Positions 27,852 through 39,721 of a stretch of DNA of 64,000 bases are shown in pieces. Position 1 is the first letter of the stretch. Each line of letters opens with the position of its first letter. The notes beneath the pieces were generated by a model. That model did not search any database. It worked only from the letters and a program-made list of their open reading frames with translations, and was not told where the DNA came from. This DNA comes from Rhizobium glycinendophyticum (lineage in GTDB: Bacteria > Pseudomonadota > Alphaproteobacteria > Rhizobiales > Rhizobiaceae). The stretch spans positions 310,001 through 374,000 of the forward strand of contig NZ_VFYP01000002.1 in assembly GCF_006443685.1 (NCBI RefSeq), in the 5' to 3' direction. The position numbers and the translations under genes are program-made.

Positions 27852-28790
27852 TCAGCGTCCCCGGTTGAGAAAGCGACTGAGAAGCAGATCTCTGAGACGG
27901 GCGGCGATCGGCGACAGCCGTTTTCCGTTGACGGTGATCAGATGGTAGGGCGTAACCACGATCGGGGTGTCGAGCGGCAGGGTGCAGAGATCGCCTACAG
28001 GGGTTTGCCGACAGAGAAGGTCTGAAACTTCGCGCGACATCGGCGCGATTGCATTGGACGATGCCAGCATCGCGATCATCACAAGCAGAGACGTCGTGTT
28101 AACGATGTTGCGCGGAATTGGTGCGCCCTCTTCGATAAACACATTCTCGACCGCTTGCCGCAGAGGCGTGCCGGGCGCCTGCATGATCCAGGGAAAATGT
28201 GCCATATCGGAGAGATTGAGGCGATCCACATTCACAAGCGGGTGCGTCCGCCGCACCACAATCTCGACCTCCTCCATGGTGGCGCCTTCGACGTGAAACT
28301 GTCGTGCATCGATCCCGGGCGGTATCCGCCCCAGAACGAAATCATATTGCCCCGAAAGAAGGTCACGGATCATCTCGCCGCTGGAGGCCACGTCCACATG
28401 GATGTCCACCGTCGCGGCTTCGGCTTTCAACGCCTTGATAGCAGGAACCACGTAGCCGACCGCACCGCCGGTCACGGCACCGACCCGCACCTTGCCCGTC
28501 AGTCCGCGCCGAATCGCGTCTACCTCCCGCCCCGCTTCGCGAATCTCCTCCAGGACATTCTGCGCCCGGCGGATCAGTGCACTGCCGACCGCCGTCGGCT
28601 CCATACCCTTCGGGGTTCTGACGAAAATTGACGATCCGACATAGCGCTCGATCTCTCCCAGCATCCGGGATGCGGCGGGTTGAGTAAGCGCAAGTGACTG
28701 AGCAGCAAGGCTTAATTGTCCCAGCTCGGCAATCGCGCTGACGAGGCTAAAATGTTTGGGCTGCAGTCGGTAAATATGGTTCTCGGACAT
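27852..28790 (-). CDS. gbpR: LysR-family regulator of the chvE sugar system, GbpR-like
   Basis: 312 residues from the ATG at 28790; the longer frame crosses the promoter. The N-terminal helix-turn-helix (LSLAAQSLALTQPAASRMLGE) and LysR substrate-binding domain (from GKVRVGAVTGGAVGYVVP, near residue 94) are complete. It diverges from a chvE homologue as gbpR does in Agrobacterium, where GbpR activates chvE in response to sugars such as D-galactose and L-arabinose. Assignment to gbpR rests on this context plus family resemblance. Confidence 0.82.
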   Translation of the reverse strand: MSENHIYRLQPKHFSLVSAIAELGQLSLAAQSLALTQPAASRMLGEIERYVGSSIFVRTPKGMEPTAVGSALIRRAQNVLEEIREAGREVDAIRRGLTGKVRVGAVTGGAVGYVVPAIKALKAEAATVDIHVDVASSGEMIRDLLSGQYDFVLGRIPPGIDARQFHVEGATMEEVEIVVRRTHPLVNVDRLNLSDMAHFPWIMQAPGTPLRQAVENVFIEEGAPIPRNIVNTTSLLVMIAMLASSNAIAPMSREVSDLLCRQTPVGDLCTLPLDTPIVVTPYHLITVNGKRLSPIAARLRDLLLSRFLNRGR

Positions 28791-28963
28791 GAACGATATA
28801 TCAACTACGGTATGCAGAAAGTCAAAATAATCATTTGATCGGTATATGAGGCAGGATAAGAGTCCCAACGGAGCTGGGGGCTGCTGCGTCAGCCGCTCGT
28901 TCTTGTTTTTCAGCGAGTGCCAGGAGGAGCTTGGCCTCGCACGGTATGACCAGGGAGGTTACC
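28791..28963. promoter_or_regulatory. Divergent gbpR-chvE promoter region
   Basis: 173 bases between the two starts. The gbpR-proximal part is AT-rich and holds the palindrome GATATATC (28795-28802) and ATCA-TT-TGAT around 28831-28840. The chvE-proximal part is GC-rich and ends in a strong GGGAGG ribosome-binding site (28953-28958). In Agrobacterium, GbpR acts from this interval; the exact box cannot be fixed from one sequence. Confidence 0.5.
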
Positions 28964-30034
28964 ATGAAGAAACTTGGAGCCCTGATTGCATCTTTTGCAA
29001 TCGGCATCGCATCCTTTACACCCTTCGCCTATGCACAGGACAAGGGCGTCGTCGGCATTTCCATGCCGACCAAGACCTCGACCCGCTGGATCTCCGACGG
29101 CGAGACCATGGAAAAGCTGTTCAAGGAAGCTGGCTACACGCCGGACCTGCAGTTCGCTGACGACGATATCCCGAACCAGCTCGCCCAGATCGAAAACATG
29201 GTCACCAAGGGTGCCAAGGTTCTCGTCATCGGCGCTATCGACGGCACGACCCTCTCCGACATCCTGCAGAAGGCTGCTGATGCCGGCGTCAAGGTTATCG
29301 CTTATGACCGCCTGATCCGCGACTCGGGCAATGTCGACTACTACGCTACCTTCGACAACTTCCAGGTCGGCGTTCTCCAGGCCACCAGCCTTGTCAACGG
29401 TCTGAAGGCAAAGTTCCCGGACACCAAGCCGTGGAACGTTGAACTCTTCGGCGGCTCGCCGGACGACAACAACGCCTTCTTCTTCTATGACGGCGCAATG
29501 TCGGTCCTGCAGCCCCTGATCGACAGTGGCGACATCGTCATCAAGTCCGGCCAGATGGGCATGGATCAGGTTGGTACCCTGCGTTGGGACGGCACGGTCG
29601 CCCAGGCTCGCATGGAAAACCTGCTGTCCTCGACCTACACCGAAGACAAGTTGCACGGCGCTCTCTCTCCGTATGACGGCCTGTCCATCGGCATCCTGTC
29701 GGCTCTGAAGGGCGTTGGCTACGGTTCTGGCGACATGACCATGCCGGTCGTCACCGGTCAGGACGCCGAACTGCCGTCCGTCAAGTCGATCCTCGCTGAC
29801 GAACAGTACTCGACCGTCTTCAAGGACACGCGCGAACTGGCAAAGGTTGCCGTTTCGATGGTTGACGCGATCATGGGTGGCAAGACCCCCGAGATCAACG
29901 ACGAAAAGACCTACAACAACGGTGTGAAGGTCGTTCCGTCCTACCTGCTGAAGCCTGTCGCTGTCGACAAGGCCAATGCCAAGGACGTTCTCGTCGGCGC
30001 CGGTTACTACACGGCCGACCAGATCGACAACTGA
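28964..30034 (+). CDS. chvE: Multiple sugar-binding periplasmic protein ChvE
   Basis: 356 residues, close to the 354 of Agrobacterium ChvE. The signal peptide ([18 protein letters not shown], cut after AYA) precedes [16 protein letters not shown]. Blocks diagnostic of ChvE are present: [59 protein letters not shown] and [11 protein letters not shown]. ChvE binds D-glucose, D-galactose, L-arabinose and several acidic sugars, feeds the GguAB importer, and in agrobacteria also signals to VirA. No vir genes are in this window, so uptake and chemotaxis are the safe roles. Confidence 0.95.
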
Positions 30035-30080
30035 TCCTCAGGATCATTCTCGGGTCCGCGAGCTATCGCGGACCCATTTT
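30032..30080 (+). terminator. Tandem hairpins between chvE and gguA
   Basis: TGATCC/GGATCA (30032-30037 and 30041-30046) starts at the chvE stop codon. Directly after it, GGGTCCGCGA (30052-30061) and TCGCGGACCC (30066-30075) form a perfect 10-bp stem with loop GCTA, followed by ATTTTC. The gap to gguA is 115 bases. It is probably a partial terminator and 3' stabiliser, allowing more ChvE than GguA/B to be made. Confidence 0.7.
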
Positions 30081-30149
30081 CTGTATGCTTTGAAGGAGCT
30101 CGCGCCTTTGGCTTGACACTCGTCGCCAATGGCTGCCGGAATTCTGCCC

Positions 30150-31685
30150 ATGGACAACATCATTCTCGAGATGCGCGGCATCACAAAGACATTTCCGGGC
30201 GTCAAAGCCCTGGACAATGTCAGCTTCAAGGTGCGCGAGGGCGAGATTCACGCGCTCGTCGGCGAAAACGGTGCCGGCAAGTCGACCCTGATGAAAGTGC
30301 TCAGCGGCGTTTATCCCGCCGGAACTTATGACGGCGACATCTTCTATGATGGGGAAGTTCGTCGCTTCAGCACGATTTCGAATAGCGAAGAGCTCGGCAT
30401 CATCATCATCCACCAGGAACTGGCCCTTGTGCCGCTCCTATCGATCGCCGAAAACATTTTCCTCGGCAACGAAATTGCCAACAGTGGCGTCATTCAGTGG
30501 CCCCAAACCTTTGCGCGGACGAAAGAGCTGCTGGCGAAGGTCGGCCTGAAGGACAGCCCCTCTACGCGCATCACCGATATCGGCGTCGGCAAGCAGCAGC
30601 TGGTTGAAATCGCCAAGGCGCTATCGAAGAAGGTCCGCCTGCTGATCCTGGACGAACCGACCGCTTCGCTCAACGAGACGGATTCCGACGCCCTGCTCAC
30701 CCTGCTGATGGAATTCCGTAAGCAGGGGATGACCTCGATCATTATCTCCCACAAGCTCAACGAAATCCGCAAGGTCGCCGACCAGATCACCATTCTGCGC
30801 GATGGCGGCACCGTAGAGACGCTCGACTGTCATACCCAGGAAATCACGGAAGACCGGATCATCAAGGGCATGGTCGGCCGTGACATGGAAGACCGTTATC
30901 CGCCCCGCGACCCGAAGATCGGCGACGTGCTCCTGGAAGTGAAGAACTGGAACGTCTTCCACCAGAACCACCGCGACCGGCAGTTCCTTCACGATGTGGC
31001 CTTCAACGTGCGCGCAGGTGAGGTCGTCGGTATCGCCGGTCTCATGGGTGCAGGTCGCACCGAAACCGCCATGAGCCTCTTCGGCAAGTCCTGGGGCCAC
31101 AAGATCACCGGCGACGTGCTGATGCATGGCAAGCCCGTGGATGTCTCGACAATCCCCAAGGCGATTGATGCCGGCCTCGCCTATGTGACGGAAGATCGCA
31201 AGCATCTCGGCCTGGTCCTGCAGAACAACATTAAGGAAAACACCACGCTGGCAAACCTGAACGGCGTTTCCAACGGTGCCGTCATCGACGACCGCAAGGA
31301 AGCCAAGGTTGCGACCGATTACCGTCAGAAACTTCGCATCCGGTCGCATTCGATCTATCAGGAAGCGGTCAACCTATCGGGTGGCAACCAGCAGAAGGTC
31401 GTTCTGTCCAAGTGGCTGTTTACCAATCCGGAAGTGCTCATTCTCGACGAACCGACGCGCGGCATCGATGTTGGCGCCAAGTTCGAAATTTATACCATCA
31501 TCAACCAGCTTGCCGCCGAAGGTAAGGGCATCCTGATGATCTCCTCGGAGATGCCCGAACTGCTCGGAACCTGCGATCGCATCTACGTCATGAACGAGGG
31601 GCGCATCGTGGCCGAACTGTCCAAGGAAGAAGCAAGCCAAGAGTCCATCATGCGTGCCATCATGCGCTCTGGGGAGAAAAACTAA
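30150..31685 (+). CDS. gguA: Sugar ABC transporter ATPase GguA
   Basis: 511 residues from ATG 30150 ([17 protein letters not shown], as in Agrobacterium GguA); an ATG at 30129 is in frame but gives an extra tail. Two ATP-binding domains: domain 1 with [22 protein letters not shown] and [10 protein letters not shown]; domain 2 with the degenerate loop GLMGAGRTE, signature [15 protein letters not shown] and [13 protein letters not shown]. It energises import of ChvE-bound sugars. The stop overlaps the gguB start by one base (TAATG). Confidence 0.95.
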
Positions 31686-32896
31686 TGGCCATTGATACAA
31701 GAACCGAAACCCCAAAGGTCTCAGTGGGTGATTACCTGCGCAAGAACATCCGCGAATACGGCCTTCTGCTCGCGCTAGTCGTCATCATGGTGCTGTTCCA
31801 GGTTCTGACCGGCGGCGTGCTGTTCCGGCCCGTCAACATCACCAACCTCGTCCTGCAGAACTCGTTCATCGTCATCATGGCCTTGGGCATGCTGCTGATC
31901 ATCGTCGCAGGCCATATCGATCTCTCTGTCGGCTCGATCGTCGCCTTCATCGGCGGCATATCGGCGATCATGCTGGTCAAATGGGGCTGGCATTTTGCTC
32001 TGGTCGTTCCGCTGTGTCTGGTGCTCGGCGCCGCGATGGGTGCCGCCCAGGGCTATTGGGTCGCCTATCAGAAGATCCCGTCCTTCATCGTGACCCTTGC
32101 CGGCATGCTCGTCTTCCGCGGCCTGACCTATGTCGCGCTCGGTGGCCGCCCGATCGGTCCGTTCCCGAAGGAATTCACCCTTCTCTCCACCGGCTTCATC
32201 CCGGACTTCCTGCCACTGACCGACACGGCGGTGACTGGGATCGCGAACCACGTCGCCATTATCGCAGTCGTCGCTCTTGTCGCTCTCGCTATCTATTCGG
32301 GCATGAAGAACCGTCGCCTGAACGATGAACACGGCAGCGAGAACGAGCCATTCGTCTTCTTCGTCGCTCAGATGGGCATCATCAGCGCGGTCGCCATCTT
32401 CCTCGGCTACCAGCTCGCCACCTATCGCGGTCTGCCGAACGTCCTCGTCGTAATGGGCATACTGATCGCGCTCTACTCCTTCGTCACGTCTCGCACGACC
32501 ATCGGCCGCCGGATCTACGCGCTGGGCGGCAACGAAAAGGCTGCCAAGCTTTCGGGCATCAACACCGAACGCCTGGTATTCCTGACCTTCGTGAACATGG
32601 GTGTGCTTGCCGCACTTGCCGGCATGATCATCGCGGCGCGCCTGAATTCTGCGACCCCGAAGGCGGGCGTTGGCTTCGAGCTCGACGTCATCGCGGCCTG
32701 CTTCATCGGTGGCGCGTCGGCATCCGGCGGCGTGGGCAAGATTACCGGTGCAGTCATCGGCGCCTTCATCATGGGTGTCATGAACAACGGCATGTCGATC
32801 ATGGGTATCGGCATCGACTACCAGCAGCTCATCAAGGGCCTCGTGCTTTTGGCTGCTGTCTTCTTCGACGTTTACAACAAGAACAAAGCAGTCTGA
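31685..32896 (+). CDS. gguB: Sugar ABC transporter permease GguB
   Basis: 403 residues, longer than the RbsC class, as expected for the GguB/XylH/MmsB group. About ten membrane segments follow a short cytoplasmic start; IVAGHIDLSVGSIVAFIGG near residue 80 and ALGGNEKAAKLSGINTERL near residue 280 are the family signatures. A charged loop with a Glu-Asn stretch (around 215-225) separates two halves. It forms the membrane channel for ChvE-delivered sugars and is translationally coupled to gguA by the TAATG overlap. Confidence 0.95.
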   Translation: MAIDTRTETPKVSVGDYLRKNIREYGLLLALVVIMVLFQVLTGGVLFRPVNITNLVLQNSFIVIMALGMLLIIVAGHIDLSVGSIVAFIGGISAIMLVKWGWHFALVVPLCLVLGAAMGAAQGYWVAYQKIPSFIVTLAGMLVFRGLTYVALGGRPIGPFPKEFTLLSTGFIPDFLPLTDTAVTGIANHVAIIAVVALVALAIYSGMKNRRLNDEHGSENEPFVFFVAQMGIISAVAIFLGYQLATYRGLPNVLVVMGILIALYSFVTSRTTIGRRIYALGGNEKAAKLSGINTERLVFLTFVNMGVLAALAGMIIAARLNSATPKAGVGFELDVIAACFIGGASASGGVGKITGAVIGAFIMGVMNNGMSIMGIGIDYQQLIKGLVLLAAVFFDVYNKNKAV

Positions 32897-32906
32897 GGAT
32901 AGGCTT

Positions 32907-33872
32907 ATGTTTCTCTCGCAATTGAAGACTGGCGGCGTCATTTGCCGCCAGGGTGAGGCCGCGCGCCTTGTCCCCGGCTACAACACCACTTACGACCTCG
33001 CCAAGGCGGCCATTGCCGCCGGAACGACCGTCGCAGCTATGATTGAAAAGCAGGGCGCAGGCGATACGGTTGACCTGCTCGCACTTGCCGGCGAAGGCAA
33101 ACTCGATTGCCCGGTCCGACATCCGGATCCGGCCCATATGTACCTGACCGGTACGGGTCTGACCCACACCGGTTCGGCATCGGCTCGTGACAGCATGCAT
33201 GCCGACACCGCCGGCATGAGCGACTCGATGAAGATGTTCCGCATGGGCCTCGAAGGCGGCAAGCCGAAGCCCGGCGAAATCGGCGTGCAGCCGGAATGGT
33301 TCTACAAGGGCAACGGCTTCAATGCAGTCGCTCCGGGCGAAGACCTCGTCTCGCCCTCCTTCGCGCTGGATGGCGGCGAAGAACCGGAAATGGCAGGCTA
33401 CTACATTATCGGCGACGACGGCACTGCGCATCGTCTCGGTTTCTCGATCGCCAACGAGTTTTCCGATCACGTGACGGAAAAGCTCAACTACCTGTTCCTT
33501 GCCCATTCGAAGCTGCGCCCGGCCTCATTCGGCCCGGAACTGCGCGTCGGCGCGCTCCCGGATCACGTGGAAGGCACCTCGCGCATTCTCCGTGGCGGCA
33601 AGACCGTGTGGGAAAAGCCGTTCCTGTCGGGTGAGACCAACATGTCCCACACGATCGCCAACCTTGAATACCATCACTTCAAGTATGCGCTGTTCTGCCA
33701 GCCGGGCGACCTGCACGTCCATATGTATGGAACGGCGACCCTTTCCGTGGCGGACGGCTTCGTCACACAGGAAGGCGACGTATTCGAAATCGAGTCCCCG
33801 CAATTCGGTCTTCCGCTGCGCAATCGCCTCGCCAAGGCTGCCGCAGAGACCGTCAAGGTGAAGATGCTCTGA
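32907..33872 (+). CDS. gguC: GguC/AraD1-family protein of the fumarylacetoacetase superfamily
   Basis: 321 residues. No signal peptide or membrane segment: it is a soluble enzyme, not a transporter part. The C-terminal two thirds resembles the FAH fold (NYLFLAHSKLRPASFGPEL, VEGTSRILRGG, EGDVFEIESPQFGLPLRN). FAH-type enzymes use a Mg-bound acidic triad on 2-keto acids, and FAH-family 2-keto-3-deoxy-pentonate dehydratases are known. It lies between gguB (10-base gap) and the arabonate dehydratase gene. I infer it is a 2-keto-3-deoxy-L-arabonate dehydratase; Agrobacterium gguC was long without a function. Confidence 0.82.
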   Translation: MFLSQLKTGGVICRQGEAARLVPGYNTTYDLAKAAIAAGTTVAAMIEKQGAGDTVDLLALAGEGKLDCPVRHPDPAHMYLTGTGLTHTGSASARDSMHADTAGMSDSMKMFRMGLEGGKPKPGEIGVQPEWFYKGNGFNAVAPGEDLVSPSFALDGGEEPEMAGYYIIGDDGTAHRLGFSIANEFSDHVTEKLNYLFLAHSKLRPASFGPELRVGALPDHVEGTSRILRGGKTVWEKPFLSGETNMSHTIANLEYHHFKYALFCQPGDLHVHMYGTATLSVADGFVTQEGDVFEIESPQFGLPLRNRLAKAAAETVKVKML

Positions 33873-33921
33873 GCGGATCGGTCACCGACCCGCCCATTTT
33901 TCCAGAGACAGGACAAAAGCT

Positions 33922-35667
33922 ATGAGCAAGTTCAAACCGGCGGCCTGGCCGCGCCAACTGAGATCTCAGCACTGGTATGGCGGGACGTCCCGCGACACGA
34001 TCTATCACCGTGGCTGGATGAAGAATCAGGGTCACCCGCACGACCTGTTCGACGGTCGCCCGGTTATCGGCATCCTCAACACCTGGTCGGACCTCACGCC
34101 CTGCAACGGTCACCTGCGCGAACTCGCTGAAAAGGTGAAGGCAGGCGTTTGGGAAGCGGGTGGCTTCCCGGTCGAGATCCCGGTCTTCTCGGCATCGGAA
34201 AACACCTTCCGTCCAACGGCGATGATGTATCGCAATCTCGCCGCCCTTGCCGTCGAGGAAGCCATGCGCGGCCAGCCGATCGATGGCGCGGTTCTGCTTG
34301 TCGGCTGCGACAAGACCACCCCGTCGCTCGTTATGGCCGCTGCCTCGACGGACCTTCCGTCGATCGTCGTCACCGGCGGTCCGATGCTGAACGGCTATTT
34401 CCGTGGCGAGCGCGTCGGCTCCGGCACGCATCTGTGGAAGTTCTCCGAAGCCGTCAAGGCGGGTGAGATGACCCAGGAAGAGTTCGTGGAAGCGGAAGCA
34501 TCCATGTCCCGATCGAGCGGCACCTGCAACACGATGGGCACTGCCTCCACCATGGCTTCCATGGTTGAAGCCTTGGGCATGGCGCTCTCCGGCAACGCTG
34601 CCATCCCGGCTGTCGACAGCCGCCGTAAGGTGATGGCGCAACTCTCCGGTCGCCGCATCGTGCAGATGGTCAAGGACGACCTGAAGCCTTCCGACATCAT
34701 GACCAAGGAAGCCTTCGAGAACGCCATTCGTGTCAACGGTGCGATCGGCGGCTCGACCAATGCCGTCGTGCACCTGCTCGCCATGGCCGGCCGCGTCGGC
34801 ATCGACCTGACGCTCGACGACTGGGACCGCCTCGGCCGCGACATCCCAACCATCGTCAACCTGATGCCGTCGGGCAAGTACCTGATGGAAGAGTTCTTCT
34901 ATGCCGGCGGCCTGCCTGTCGTCATCAAGCGCCTCGGCGAAGCCGGCAAGCTGCACAAAGATGCGCTCACGGTTTCCGGCGTCAGCATCTGGGACGAAGT
35001 CAAGGATGTCCGCAACTGGAACGAGGACGTCATTCTTCCGGTCGAAAAGGCACTGACGCAGCAGGGCGGCATCGTCGTCCTGCGCGGCAACCTCGCGCCG
35101 AAGGGTTGCGTGCTGAAGCCATCTGCTGCTTCCCCGCACCTGATGAAGCATCGCGGCCGCGCCGTGGTCTTCGAAGACATCGACGACTACAAGGCGAAGA
35201 TCAACGACGAGGCGCTCGACATCGACGAGACCTGCGTCATGGTGCTGAAGAACTGCGGTCCGCGCGGCTATCCGGGCATGGCCGAAGTGGGTAATATGGG
35301 CCTGCCTCCGAAGGTTCTGCGCAAGGGCATCACCGACATGGTCCGCATCTCCGATGCCCGCATGTCCGGTACCGCCTATGGAACTGTCCTCCTGCACACC
35401 TCGCCGGAAGCTGCCCGTGGCGGTCCGCTCGCCATTGTCCGCAACGGCGACTTCATCGAGATCGACGTCGATGCCCGCAAGGTGCATCTCGATATCTCGG
35501 AAGAGGAAATGCAGCACCGTCTGGCCGATTGGCGCCCCTCGGTCGAACCGCCGGCAAGCGGTTATGCGAAACTCTTCCATGATCATGTCGAGGGCGCCGA
35601 TACCGGTGCAGACTTTGACTTCCTGAAGGGCTGCCGCGGTTCGCCGGTCGGCAAGGATGCACACTGA
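33922..35667 (+). CDS. araD: L-arabinonate dehydratase (IlvD/Edd family)
   Basis: 581 residues, two more than the Rhizobium leguminosarum L-arabinonate dehydratase, which it resembles throughout. It should dehydrate L-arabonate, and also D-galactonate and D-fuconate, to the 2-keto-3-deoxy acid. Cys 61 (DLTPCNGH), Cys 129 (LLVGCDKTT) and Cys 202 (SSGTCNTMG) match the three cysteines of the iron-sulfur site, and the SDARMSGTAYG segment contains the catalytic serine region. Ribosome-binding AGGAC precedes the ATG. The next gene starts 11 bases after the stop. Confidence 0.94.
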   Translation: MSKFKPAAWPRQLRSQHWYGGTSRDTIYHRGWMKNQGHPHDLFDGRPVIGILNTWSDLTPCNGHLRELAEKVKAGVWEAGGFPVEIPVFSASENTFRPTAMMYRNLAALAVEEAMRGQPIDGAVLLVGCDKTTPSLVMAAASTDLPSIVVTGGPMLNGYFRGERVGSGTHLWKFSEAVKAGEMTQEEFVEAEASMSRSSGTCNTMGTASTMASMVEALGMALSGNAAIPAVDSRRKVMAQLSGRRIVQMVKDDLKPSDIMTKEAFENAIRVNGAIGGSTNAVVHLLAMAGRVGIDLTLDDWDRLGRDIPTIVNLMPSGKYLMEEFFYAGGLPVVIKRLGEAGKLHKDALTVSGVSIWDEVKDVRNWNEDVILPVEKALTQQGGIVVLRGNLAPKGCVLKPSAASPHLMKHRGRAVVFEDIDDYKAKINDEALDIDETCVMVLKNCGPRGYPGMAEVGNMGLPPKVLRKGITDMVRISDARMSGTAYGTVLLHTSPEAARGGPLAIVRNGDFIEIDVDARKVHLDISEEEMQHRLADWRPSVEPPASGYAKLFHDHVEGADTGADFDFLKGCRGSPVGKDAH

Positions 35668-35678
35668 GGAACCTGATC

Positions 35679-36608
35679 ATGGCAGATCGTATCCCGCTCG
35701 CGCTCGTGGGCATCGGCAAGATTGCCCGCGACCAGCATATTCCGTCGATCGCTGGTGGTAACGACTTTGTCGTTGCCGCCGGTGTCAGCCGTCACGGCAA
35801 GGTCGAAGGTGCGGAAAACTTCACAGACTTCGATGCCTTTCTGGCTGCCCGCCCGGACATCAAGGTCGTCTCGCTCTGCACGCCGCCGGAAGTCCGTTTC
35901 GACATGGCCAAGGCCGCGATCGCGGCCGGTCGCCACGTATTGATGGAAAAGCCGCCGGCCACGACCTTGGGCGAGGCAGAAGCCCTAAGCGAGATCGCCG
36001 CCAAGGCTGGCGTCACGCTCTTCGCCACCTGGCACTCACGTTTCGCCCTCGGTGTCGAGCCGGCAAAACAGTGGCTTTCGGACAAGGTCATCCAGTCGAT
36101 TTCGATCGTCTGGAAAGAAGACGTCCGCCGCTGGCATCCCGGCCAAGCCTGGATCTGGGAACCGGGTGGTTTCGGCGTCTTCGATCCGGGTATCAATGCT
36201 CTCTCGATCCTGACCGAGATCGTGCCTGGTCACATCATGGTTCAGAAGTCGACGCTTGAGTTTCCGGAAAACAAGAAGCAACCCATTGCCGCGTCCATCG
36301 CCATGCGGACCGTCGAAGGCGCGCCTGTTACGGCCGAATTCGACTGGCGACAGGAAGGCCCGCAGACCTGGGATATCACTGTCCAGACGAATGAAGGCGA
36401 ACTGCGCCTTTCAAAGGGCGGTTCGGAACTCTATATCGGGGGTAAGGAACAGGCGTCTGGCCCGGATCGCGAATATGCGGGCATCTACGAACGCTTCGCC
36501 AAGCTTATCCGCTCTCGCCAGAGCGACACCGACTACCAGCCGCTGCGCATTGTGGCGGATTCCTTCCTCTGCGGAGAGCGGAAAGTCGTCGCTCACTTTG
36601 AAGACTGA
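35679..36608 (+). CDS. D-galactose / L-arabinose 1-dehydrogenase (Gfo/Idh/MocA family)
   Basis: 309 residues, the length of Azospirillum L-arabinose 1-dehydrogenase. The NADP-binding start is LALVGIGKIARDQHIPSI; EKPPATTLGEA holds the catalytic Lys; KEDVRRWHPGQAWIWEPGG and FDPGINALSIL contain substrate residues conserved in galactose/arabinose dehydrogenases. It oxidises the C1 hydroxyl to the lactone, the first step for both sugars. No lactonase gene is in the cluster, so hydrolysis must be spontaneous or encoded elsewhere. Confidence 0.93.
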   Translation: MADRIPLALVGIGKIARDQHIPSIAGGNDFVVAAGVSRHGKVEGAENFTDFDAFLAARPDIKVVSLCTPPEVRFDMAKAAIAAGRHVLMEKPPATTLGEAEALSEIAAKAGVTLFATWHSRFALGVEPAKQWLSDKVIQSISIVWKEDVRRWHPGQAWIWEPGGFGVFDPGINALSILTEIVPGHIMVQKSTLEFPENKKQPIAASIAMRTVEGAPVTAEFDWRQEGPQTWDITVQTNEGELRLSKGGSELYIGGKEQASGPDREYAGIYERFAKLIRSRQSDTDYQPLRIVADSFLCGERKVVAHFED

Positions 36609-36629
36609 AATCAAAAGGAGGCCCCTCCC

Positions 36630-38144
36630 ATGGCCTATACACCGACCGGAAAACACCTGATCGCCGGCAACTGGGTTACCAGCACCGATACTTTCTCTTC
36701 TTCCCCCGCAACCGGCGCATCGCACACCTTCTCAAAGGGTACGCCGGCTTTGGTCGACCAGGCAGCGAAGGCCGCAGAAGAGGCCTTCGAAACCTATGCT
36801 TATTCGACACGTGAAGAGCGTGCGGCCTTCCTTGAGGCAATCGCAGAGGAAATCGATGCGCGCGGCGACGCGATCACCGAGATTGGCAGCCAGGAGTCCG
36901 GCCTGCCGGAAGCCCGGCTGATCGGCGAGCGTGGTCGTACCGTCGGGCAGCTTCGTCTCTTCGCCGCCCACATCCGCAAGGGTGACTACCTCGATCGCCG
37001 CCATGATGAGGCTCTGCCTGACCGCAAGCCCCTGCCTCGCTCAGATCTCAGGATGATTCAGCGTCCAATCGGGCCCGTCGCCGTATTCGGTGCGTCCAAC
37101 TTCCCGCTCGCCTTTTCGACGGCAGGCGGTGACACGGCGGCGGCGCTGGCTGCCGGTTGCCCCGTGGTAGTCAAGGCCCATGATGCTCATCCGGGCACGG
37201 GTGAAATCGTCGCCTCTGCCATCGATGCCGCGATAAAGCGTTGCGGCGTGCATCCGGGCGTATTTTCGCTGGTGCATGGTGGCAGCCGCGAAGTCGGCCA
37301 GGCCCTCGTCCAGCATCCGCTGATCAAGGCGGTCGGCTTCACCGGCTCGCTTGGCGGCGGTCGCGCGCTGTTCGACCTCTGCGCCCAGCGTCCGGAGCCG
37401 ATCCCGTTCTTCGGCGAGCTCGGCTCAGTCAACCCGATGTTCATGCTGCCCAAGGCTGTTGCTACTCGCGGCGAAACCATTGCCAAGGGCTGGGTCGGTT
37501 CGCTCACCATGGGAGCCGGCCAGTTCTGCACGAACCCGGGGATCGTCGTCCTGTTGAAGGGCAGCGATGCGGACAAGTACGTCGAAACGGCAACGGAAGC
37601 GCTGTCTGCTGTCGGTCCGCAGACCATGCTGACGGACGGTATCGCCGATGCTTACCGCAAGGGTGCAACGCGCATTGCCGGCACCGAAGGGGTTCGTTCG
37701 GTTCTGACCTCAACCTGCGACCTGCGGAATGCCACGCCATACCTCTTCCAGACTACAGCCAAGGACTGGCTCGAAAACCACGTCCTCGGCGAAGAAGTAT
37801 TCGGACCGCTGGGTCTCATCGTCATCGCCGACAGCGAAGACGAAATGGTCGCGATGGCGCGGAGCCTGTCGGGACAGCTGACGGCTTCGCTGCACCTGGA
37901 TGCAGGCGACGAAGCGCTTGGAAAGCGCCTAATGCCGATCCTGGAGCGCAAGGCGGGCCGCGTGCTCGCCAATGGCTTCCCGACCGGTGTGGAAGTGGCT
38001 GACTCGATGGTCCATGGCGGTCCCTACCCGGCCTCCACGAACTTCGGCGCTACGTCTGTCGGCACGCTGTCCATCCGCCGCTTCCTGCGGCCGGTCTGCT
38101 TCCAGGACATTCCGGCCGCCCTGCTGCCGGTGGACCTGGCCTGA
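36630..38144 (+). CDS. 2-oxoglutarate semialdehyde dehydrogenase (aldehyde dehydrogenase, NADP-type)
   Basis: 504 residues of the aldehyde dehydrogenase superfamily. The catalytic Cys 300 (MGAGQFCTNPG), the general-base Glu 263 (FFGELGSVNP) and Asn 157 (FGASNFPL) are present. The PF00171 subgroup with this N-terminus (GKHLIAGNWVTS) is the ketoglutarate semialdehyde dehydrogenase type III. It converts 2-oxoglutarate semialdehyde, the end product of the L-arabinose branch, to 2-oxoglutarate. AAAGGAGG just before ATG 36630 is a strong ribosome-binding site. Confidence 0.92.
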   Translation: MAYTPTGKHLIAGNWVTSTDTFSSSPATGASHTFSKGTPALVDQAAKAAEEAFETYAYSTREERAAFLEAIAEEIDARGDAITEIGSQESGLPEARLIGERGRTVGQLRLFAAHIRKGDYLDRRHDEALPDRKPLPRSDLRMIQRPIGPVAVFGASNFPLAFSTAGGDTAAALAAGCPVVVKAHDAHPGTGEIVASAIDAAIKRCGVHPGVFSLVHGGSREVGQALVQHPLIKAVGFTGSLGGGRALFDLCAQRPEPIPFFGELGSVNPMFMLPKAVATRGETIAKGWVGSLTMGAGQFCTNPGIVVLLKGSDADKYVETATEALSAVGPQTMLTDGIADAYRKGATRIAGTEGVRSVLTSTCDLRNATPYLFQTTAKDWLENHVLGEEVFGPLGLIVIADSEDEMVAMARSLSGQLTASLHLDAGDEALGKRLMPILERKAGRVLANGFPTGVEVADSMVHGGPYPASTNFGATSVGTLSIRRFLRPVCFQDIPAALLPVDLA

Positions 38145-38154
38145 GGTAGAAGCA

Positions 38155-39084
38155 GTGACTACAAAGCCGTTTGCCGCCCTGGTCGACTGGGGCACCAGCA
38201 ATCTCCGCCTCTGGCTGACTGACAGCCAGGGCGGGGTCCTCGCCGAGCGGCAATCGGCAGAAGGCATGGGCAACCTCGATCGCTCGGCCTATCCCGCTAT
38301 TCTTGAGGGCCATTTGTCGGCCCTTGGGGCAGAATCTGACTTGCCTGCGGTCATCGCCGGAATGGCCGGGGCTCGGACGGGTTGGCGCGAGGCACCTTAT
38401 GTGGAAACGCCTGCGCCGCTCATTGGCCTCTTTCAGCACGCCGTGATCCCGGATGGCGTTACGCGTCCCGTCTACATCCTGCCGGGCGTTTGCCAACGCG
38501 AGAACGGCCGCTATGACGTTATGCGGGGCGAGGAGACGCAGCTTGCCGGCGCTCTAGAACAGGGCCTCGACAACGCGTTGTTTTGCCTGCCGGGCACTCA
38601 TTCCAAGTGGGCAATGGTAGAAGACGGGCACATTCGCCGTTTCTCCACAGTCATGACGGGTGAGTTGTTCCATCTGATCAGCCGGCAGTCGATCTTGCGG
38701 CTGTCAGTTCCGGAAGATGCGGACGCAGAAGCGGATCCGGACATTTTCAACGCGGCAGTGGACGCTGCTCTCGCGCCAAACTTTGCCTTGACCTCCACGC
38801 TTTTCTCCATCCGCGCCGAAAGTCTTCTGTCCCAAGGGACGAAGATCAATGCCGCCGCCCGCCTCTCCGGACTTCTGATCGGCGCAGAAATTGCCGCCAT
38901 CCAGTCGGATCTGAGACGCTACGGCAAGGCCTACCTGATCGGGACGGGCAAGCTGACGCGTCTTTATGCGCGCGCCATTGCCAGAGCCGGCGGGGAAGCG
39001 GTCATGCTCGATGGCGGGCTGCTGGTCCGTCGCGGCCTGCTCGCTAGCGCTTTTTCATTGTTCGACCACGAATTCAAGGAATGA
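38155..39084 (+). CDS. dgoK: 2-dehydro-3-deoxygalactonokinase DgoK
   Basis: 309 residues from GTG 38155, with GAGG at 38143-38146; a longer in-frame ORF overlaps the upstream gene and is not real. The sugar-kinase start AALVDWGTSNLRLWL and later LPGTHSKWAMVE and IGTGKLTRLYARAI match DgoK. It phosphorylates 2-keto-3-deoxy-D-galactonate with ATP in the DeLey-Doudoroff route. It starts 10 bases after the aldehyde dehydrogenase and ends 4 bases before the aldolase start. Confidence 0.93.
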   Translation: MTTKPFAALVDWGTSNLRLWLTDSQGGVLAERQSAEGMGNLDRSAYPAILEGHLSALGAESDLPAVIAGMAGARTGWREAPYVETPAPLIGLFQHAVIPDGVTRPVYILPGVCQRENGRYDVMRGEETQLAGALEQGLDNALFCLPGTHSKWAMVEDGHIRRFSTVMTGELFHLISRQSILRLSVPEDADAEADPDIFNAAVDAALAPNFALTSTLFSIRAESLLSQGTKINAAARLSGLLIGAEIAAIQSDLRRYGKAYLIGTGKLTRLYARAIARAGGEAVMLDGGLLVRRGLLASAFSLFDHEFKE

Positions 39085-39088
39085 CCCC

Positions 39089-39721
39089 ATGACCTCCACC
39101 GTCGCCTGGCCGTCCCTCCGCCGCAATCTGGTGGCGATCCTGCGTGGCATCAAGCCCGAAGAGATCGAGGCTGCCGTGGACGCTCTTGTCAACGCTGGTT
39201 TCGAGGCGATCGAGGTCCCGTTGAACTCTCCGGAACCCTTCGTCTCGATCGAGAAGGCGCGGAAGCTGGCGCCCGCCAATGTTCTGATCGGCGCAGGCAC
39301 CGTCCTGGAAGTCGCTCAGGTGGACCGCCTCAATGATGTTGGTGGCAACTTGCTGGTGACGCCGAATGTGGAGCCTGATGTGATCCGTCGCGCTGTCGGC
39401 CACGGGATGGTCACCATGCCCGGCGTCTTCACGGCAACGGAAGCGCTTCTAGCCGCGAAAAGCGGTGCGGCCGCGCTAAAATTCTTCCCGGCGAGCGCAC
39501 TGGGTCCGGGTGGCATTTCCGCAGTCAAGGCTATTCTGCCGGCTAACCTGCTGGTTGGCGCTGTGGGCGGTGTCTCGGAGAATAACTTCGCCGACTACTG
39601 GAAAGTGGGTGTTCGCGCTTTTGGCTTGGGCACCAGCCTTTACAGGCCAGGTGATTCGGCATCGTCGATCGGCGAAAAGGCCTTGAAGGCCGCCGCTGCC
39701 TACGATGCGTTGAAGGCCTAA
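39089..39721 (+). CDS. dgoA: 2-dehydro-3-deoxy-6-phosphogalactonate aldolase DgoA
   Basis: 210 residues, a class I KDPG/KDPGal aldolase. The start is MTSTVAWPSLRRNLVAILRG; catalytic Glu is in FEAIEVPLNSP; the Schiff-base Lys is in ALKFFPASALGPGG (near residue 130). It splits KDPGal into pyruvate and glyceraldehyde-3-phosphate. It is the last gene of the chvE-linked catabolic run, four bases after dgoK, and a hairpin follows at 39753-39773. Confidence 0.94.
   Translation: MTSTVAWPSLRRNLVAILRGIKPEEIEAAVDALVNAGFEAIEVPLNSPEPFVSIEKARKLAPANVLIGAGTVLEVAQVDRLNDVGGNLLVTPNVEPDVIRRAVGHGMVTMPGVFTATEALLAAKSGAAALKFFPASALGPGGISAVKAILPANLLVGAVGGVSENNFADYWKVGVRAFGLGTSLYRPGDSASSIGEKALKAAAAYDALKA

Follow-up and report, generated by a model that had tools for sequence, protein, structure and literature searches.

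GguC as the probable FAH-fold L-2-keto-3-deoxyarabonate dehydratase of the oxidative L-arabinose pathway in Rhizobium glycinendophyticum

Which enzyme dehydrates L-2-keto-3-deoxyarabonate (L-KDA) in the L-arabinose operon of Rhizobium glycinendophyticum? The question is raised by a 64,000-nucleotide stretch of its genome (contig NZ_VFYP01000002.1, positions 310,001 to 374,000; hereafter the window), in which gguC lies among genes for a sugar transporter and for pathway enzymes. A preliminary description of this DNA had proposed that GguC, a member of the fumarylacetoacetase (FAH) superfamily, performs this step. Our analysis supports that proposal: GguC is very probably the L-KDA dehydratase of the oxidative, non-phosphorylating L-arabinose pathway. 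This reading draws on its nearest relatives among solved structures, in sequence and in predicted fold, on putative active-site residues invariant in 47/47 sequences, on the lack of a DapA-type competitor and on the replacement of gguC within an operon.

32907..33872, + strand: gguC (araD1), 321 amino acids, predicted FAH-fold, Mg-dependent L-KDA dehydratase

The gene is an intact open reading frame, from ATG to stop, exactly where it had been placed. Its product belongs to the NCBIfam family NF040903 (GguC), scoring 509.1 bits against a curated cut-off of 340 over residues 9-321, which is essentially its whole length. While the preliminary description took the gene name to denote a transport function of unknown nature, the product name of NF040903 at NCBI is in fact "AraD1 family protein." Among the matches listed, the first 66 homologues are 93-96% identical to GguC, and those that are named carry the labels Rhizobium, Allorhizobium, Agrobacterium or broader alphaproteobacterial ones. 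A candidate fusion of GguC to an aldehyde dehydrogenase (P0163, 463 amino acids, PF00171) was dropped because its middle reads as out-of-frame sequence.

As for the fold, the structural model of GguC displays an N-terminal domain and an FAH β-sandwich-roll catalytic domain, which would place the protein in the FAH superfamily and not among class I aldolases. Membership in the DHDPS/NAL class I aldolases also finds no support in profile comparison, since hhalign of GguC against a six-member DHDPS alignment gives a probability of 0.7 over 14 columns. A pentonate dehydratase is the top match for GguC among the sequences of solved structures and in both fold lists. When the model was compared with FAH dehydratases, a check that had been suggested beforehand, the nearest solved fold was that of the 2-keto-3-deoxypentonate dehydratases.

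For the active site of the Sulfolobus enzyme, the accessible text of a review (PMC9795676) names residues 143, 145 and 164 as Mg ligands and pairs Glu114 with Lys182. GguC residues E159, E161 and E184 align with residues 143, 145 and 164 of 2q18, and E130 and K202 with Glu114 and Lys182. All five are invariant in the 47 GguC sequences in which conservation was counted (alignment A1, 17/64 full-length sequences left out by choice; alignment A2 leaves out 36/64, also by choice). GguC is therefore likely, as judged by alignment, to possess both the three acidic Mg ligands and the Glu/Lys pair of FAH-type 2-keto-3-deoxypentonate dehydratases. The two proteins nevertheless differ: they share about 20% identity, the Sulfolobus enzyme acts on a D-substrate whereas an L-substrate is expected for GguC, and its third ligand is Asp by our own count in the 2q18 chain (the same review, in its accessible text, writes Glu164), in contrast to Glu184 in GguC.

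In the proposed pathway, ChvE-GguAB would import L-arabinose (and galactose), the Gfo/Idh enzyme would oxidize L-arabinose and the IlvD-type enzyme would form L-KDA, which GguC would dehydrate to 2-oxoglutarate semialdehyde for conversion to 2-oxoglutarate by the aldehyde dehydrogenase. Substrate, stereochemistry and chemistry are what we infer here. If GguC works as the Sulfolobus enzyme does, Mg2+ on E159, E161 and E184 may bind the 2-keto acid, E130 may abstract the C3 (or C5) proton and K202 may protonate the C4 hydroxyl, after which the enol product would rearrange to the semialdehyde.

Replacement across genomes provides a further line of evidence. Of 397 Pseudomonadota genomes drawn, 59 contain GguC (two fragmentary sub-cut-off matches excluded) and 33 contain the Schiff-base, DapA-type L-KDA dehydratase of Azospirillum brasilense, counted at E<=1e-40. 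Two of these genomes (G245 and G271), from one genus of the same class as the window, carry the operon gguA-gguB-dehydratase-Gfo/Idh-X-aldehyde dehydrogenase-dgoK-dgoA without gguC. In G245, X is an A. brasilense-type L-KDA dehydratase (346 bits to 7c0c), with which its G271 counterpart shares 96% identity; in both genomes a DapA-type enzyme thus occupies the operon slot of GguC. A. brasilense AraD (7c0c, 3fkk/3fkr) has the predicted GguC reaction and the same place in the pathway, but its fold is that of the DHDPS/NAL superfamily, unrelated to GguC, with which hhalign finds no relation. Among the 92/397 genomes with a strong arabonate dehydratase match (E<=1e-250, our own threshold; in 32/92 no match exceeds the curated cut-off), 42 have GguC only, 26 the A. 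brasilense type only, 2 both and 22 neither (Fisher P 8e-8, shared ancestry ignored). Counted by genus (n=58), the figures are 25, 14, 2 and 17 (P 0.0013, shared ancestry again ignored). An arabonate dehydratase match at E<=1e-250 is lacking in 5/33 A. brasilense-type genomes. Three loci (L146-L148, in G205, G307 and G303) have chvE-gguA-gguB-dehydratase operons without gguC, which lies elsewhere in these genomes (L066, L057 and L054).

In the window, gguC is embedded among the following genes:

28931..30034, + strand: chvE, multiple-monosaccharide binding protein (NF040907, 535 bits, cut-off 460; true start probably inside the reading frame)
30129..31685, + strand: gguA, ABC transporter ATP-binding protein (NF040905, 889 bits, cut-off 810)
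31685..32896, + strand: gguB, ABC transporter permease (NF040906, 565 bits, cut-off 450)
33922..35667, + strand: L-arabinonate dehydratase, IlvD/EDD family, preceding pathway step (NF009559, 951 bits, cut-off 882)
35679..36608, + strand: Gfo/Idh/MocA L-arabinose/D-galactose 1-dehydrogenase, first pathway step (4ew6, 365 bits; 6jnj, 360 bits)
36630..38144, + strand: aldehyde dehydrogenase (PF00171), by its position probably the alpha-ketoglutaric semialdehyde dehydrogenase
38155..39084, + strand: probable 2-dehydro-3-deoxygalactonokinase DgoK (open reading frame; GTG at 38155 taken as start)
39089..39721, + strand: 2-dehydro-3-deoxy-6-phosphogalactonate aldolase DgoA (NF006600, 287 bits, cut-off 207)

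From chvE to the aldehyde dehydrogenase the gaps are 94, -1, 10, 49, 11 and 21 bp, followed by 10 bp to dgoK (if GTG 38155 is its start) and 4 bp to dgoA. The whole therefore reads as one operon, and gguC indeed sits, as previously described, between the permease gene and that of the arabonate dehydratase. The latter's product scores 1164 bits against 5j83 and 1161 bits against 9evv, an "L-arabinonate dehydratase." The structures matched by the Gfo/Idh protein are the galactose dehydrogenase of R. etli (4ew6) and the L-arabinose 1-dehydrogenase of A. brasilense (6jnj). The aldehyde dehydrogenase reaches no NCBIfam cut-off among the 25 families listed, and the 38155..39084 frame, whose product we take to be DgoK, matches no NCBIfam family. 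No DapA-like gene is named among the cluster genes scanned, which bears out the absence noted earlier, and no arabinonolactonase is named among the operon genes scanned (28931-39721, the extent of that scan). Divergent from chvE lies a LysR-family gene (27852-28868, - strand; best NCBIfam TF_pcaQ, 143 bits, below the cut-off of 304), which by its place may be the GbpR-like regulator of the ggu operon.

The company that gguC keeps in other genomes was assessed from homologues that score 200 bits or more and lie no further than 6 kb away, as raw counts unadjusted for chance adjacency. At 63 survey loci (every full-length GguC match in the 397-genome draw except the window), the dehydratase or aldehyde dehydrogenase is present in 46 and ChvE or GguB in 26, the enzymes occurring without the transporter in 31; at 60 bits, 48/63 have an enzyme neighbor. 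The named loci are the best 80 of 584 when ranked by their similarity to a distant GguC; most come from Pseudomonas, and some are truncated by contig ends. Here an enzyme is present in 71/80, the transporter in 3/80 and enzymes without transporter in 68/80. Overall, gguC thus keeps company with the enzymes more often than with the transporter. On pSymB of Sinorhizobium meliloti 1021 (L154), the order is chvE-gguA-gguB-gguC-aldehyde dehydrogenase-dehydratase. This is the order of R. leguminosarum araABCDEF, where, according to the accessible text of PMC4495286, araE is the semialdehyde dehydrogenase and the arabonate dehydratase follows it; by operon position, gguC would correspond to araD. The aldehyde dehydrogenases beside gguC differ, that of pSymB (L154, about 9000) scoring only 80 bits against the window's.

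Several observations weigh against GguC as the L-KDA dehydratase. No Pfam family matches GguC at E<=1e-3, which keeps it out of PF01557 (FAH). With Pfam silent, the FAH assignment rests on profile and fold comparison, so that the superfamily named in the preliminary description stands on these two grounds and fails on the Pfam model. The GguC profile also shows no significant relation to a single canonical FAH protein of its own genome (probability 1.1, E 0.051), two non-dehydratase FAH entries outrank xylonate dehydratase among the Foldseek matches, and K202 adjoins residues 191-200, where the model is less certain. As for genomic distribution, 15/59 GguC genomes have no dehydratase match at E<=1e-250, and both enzyme types coexist in the two genomes mentioned and at one named locus (L192). 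The transporter occurs without either enzyme at 11/63 survey loci and none of them at 6/63, and 9 of the best 80 of 584 named loci have neither enzymes nor transporter. The 22/92 dehydratase genomes with neither L-KDA dehydratase type count here as well; they may have a third solution, take an aldolase route or use a different substrate. At L143-L145, which have an arabonate-dehydratase-like gene and neither enzyme type, only Gfo/Idh adjoins among the pathway genes searched. Finally, a literature search, with most subscription journals outside it, found no assay of a GguC protein, and another protein of the genome might act on the same substrate.

That protein, one of three PF01557 proteins in the genome, is a XylX-like FAH protein (L235:7730-8896, - strand, contig C5; 396 bits to the xylonate dehydratase 9kkt), which could be the L-KDA dehydratase while GguC performs another step. 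In favor of this, C785_RS13680 of Herbaspirillum huttiense, which we take as of the XylX-like kind, also acts on L-2-keto-3-deoxypentonate (L-KDP), but the same source, in its accessible text, reports a 34-fold preference for D-KDP (PMC6336799). XylX-like dehydratases are longer than GguC (382-383 residues) and have a D-substrate by title, and the one in this genome, in contrast to GguC, is PF01557-positive. Moreover, the XylX-like gene sits apart from the arabinose genes, and this explanation does not account for a true L-KDA dehydratase replacing gguC in the G245/G271 operon, which makes it quite improbable. The neighbors of the XylX-like gene include a PRK13017-group gene of the IlvD type, a glycolate-oxidase-like gene and one for a D-erythronate dehydrogenase.

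We give equally little weight to GguC acting as another hydrolase of the pathway (an L-arabinonolactonase, for instance) or hydrolyzing C-C bonds, as many FAH enzymes do. The top sequence match and the top of both fold lists are a pentonate dehydratase, and where gguC is replaced, an enzyme of the L-KDA dehydratase type stands in for it. Where the His/Glu pair of hydrolases would be expected, a by-eye alignment shows an invariant H87 in GguC and, in place of the Glu, an invariant S90.

Could a DHDPS-family protein elsewhere be the real L-KDA dehydratase? The source genome, 99.65% complete, encodes four: L001, which is DapA; L003, a 4ur7-type keto-deoxygalactarate dehydratase (539 bits); and L002 and L004, without assigned function. 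None matches the A. brasilense type at E<=1e-40, they are 20-27% identical to the L130 enzyme, and none has the Glu, presumably catalytic, that lies two residues past the aligned Lys in L130 and L131. The alternative was rejected on these grounds: the very enzyme whose presence elsewhere in the genome would have undermined the earlier proposal was looked for and not found, and we regard this possibility as extremely unlikely. For L003, the accessible text of PMC13398020 adds that DHDPS dehydratases of the glucarate and arabinonate types each show high selectivity for their own substrate. On contig C8 (L239:6932-9139), the gene after L004 is galactonate-dehydratase-like (PRK14017, 253 bits against a cut-off of 311). 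The accessory role in sugar transport that the name of GguC suggests is scarcely credible: although gguC starts 10 bp after gguB and ChvE or GguB is nearby in 26/63 survey loci, its predicted fold is that of an enzyme, and at 31/63 survey loci and 68/80 named loci the enzymes accompany it without this transporter.

Earlier work already pointed toward such a role for the family. In Agrobacterium tumefaciens, Zhao and Binns (2011, J Bacteriol 193:6586) reportedly renamed gguC araD1, its deletion impairing growth only on L-arabinose. The A. tumefaciens protein bears the same NCBIfam family name as that of the window, and, as far as the accessible C58 record goes, chvE adjoins gguABC in both. In the window, the dehydratase, 1-dehydrogenase, aldehyde dehydrogenase and dgoKA directly follow gguC, and the present case for fold and active site is built on sequence and model. 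As the preliminary description had said, FAH-type keto-deoxypentonate dehydratases are known. Watanabe et al. (2019) purified FAH/MhpD-type L-KDP dehydratases from H. huttiense (C785_RS13710) and P. mimosarum (A19U_RS0104695) in what the accessible text calls the "first study" of this type (PMC6336799). By their description, these share superfamily and expected reaction with GguC, and the reported catalytic Glu138 of C785_RS13710 falls within the range (130-143) of the corresponding Glu in the aligned GguC proteins. Neither species is among the best 80 of 584 loci or the names on 120 of 8000 proteins, most of which are nameless. A 2022 review, in its accessible part, lists only the DHDPS-type enzyme for the L-substrate among solved structures, and further L-KDP dehydratases were characterized after being picked as homologues of the A. 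brasilense enzyme (PMC7374468, accessible text). In the accessible texts, the string GguC stands in a gene list in PMC6637203 and denotes an RNA motif in PMC8913705. The tone of discovery of the preliminary description therefore finds no support: the AraD1 name exists and FAH-type L-KDP dehydratases are in print, so that the assignment, though well supported, joins a known reaction with a known family and brings no surprise. A dehydratase role, the most likely one for GguC, had been suspected for the family before; the comparison adds strong evidence for it.

We lean, by a narrow margin, toward a broader proposal: in Pseudomonadota, GguC would be the most frequent L-KDA dehydratase, representing an FAH-fold lineage specific for the L-substrate (third ligand Glu, with H87-x-x-S90 replacing the hydrolase His/Glu) that swaps with an unrelated Schiff-base enzyme in one operon. 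As a bolder extension, where dgoK-dgoA are present GguC might decide that L-KDA goes to 2-oxoglutarate, leaving the galactose-derived hexose analogue for the kinase. If GguC is the L-KDA dehydratase, the step missing from the ara/ggu operons in rhizobia and agrobacteria would be filled, a gene that databases still list under an empty name or one derived from transport would gain a chemical reaction, and the mutual replacement of two unrelated enzymes within a single operon would make a clean example. It would also offer further enzymes for 2-oxoglutarate production from hemicellulose sugars. L-arabinose use also bears on the colonization of roots, which in R. leguminosarum is promoted by araD (RL3614), as random-barcode transposon sequencing (RB-TnSeq) showed; by operon order, this gene would be gguC.
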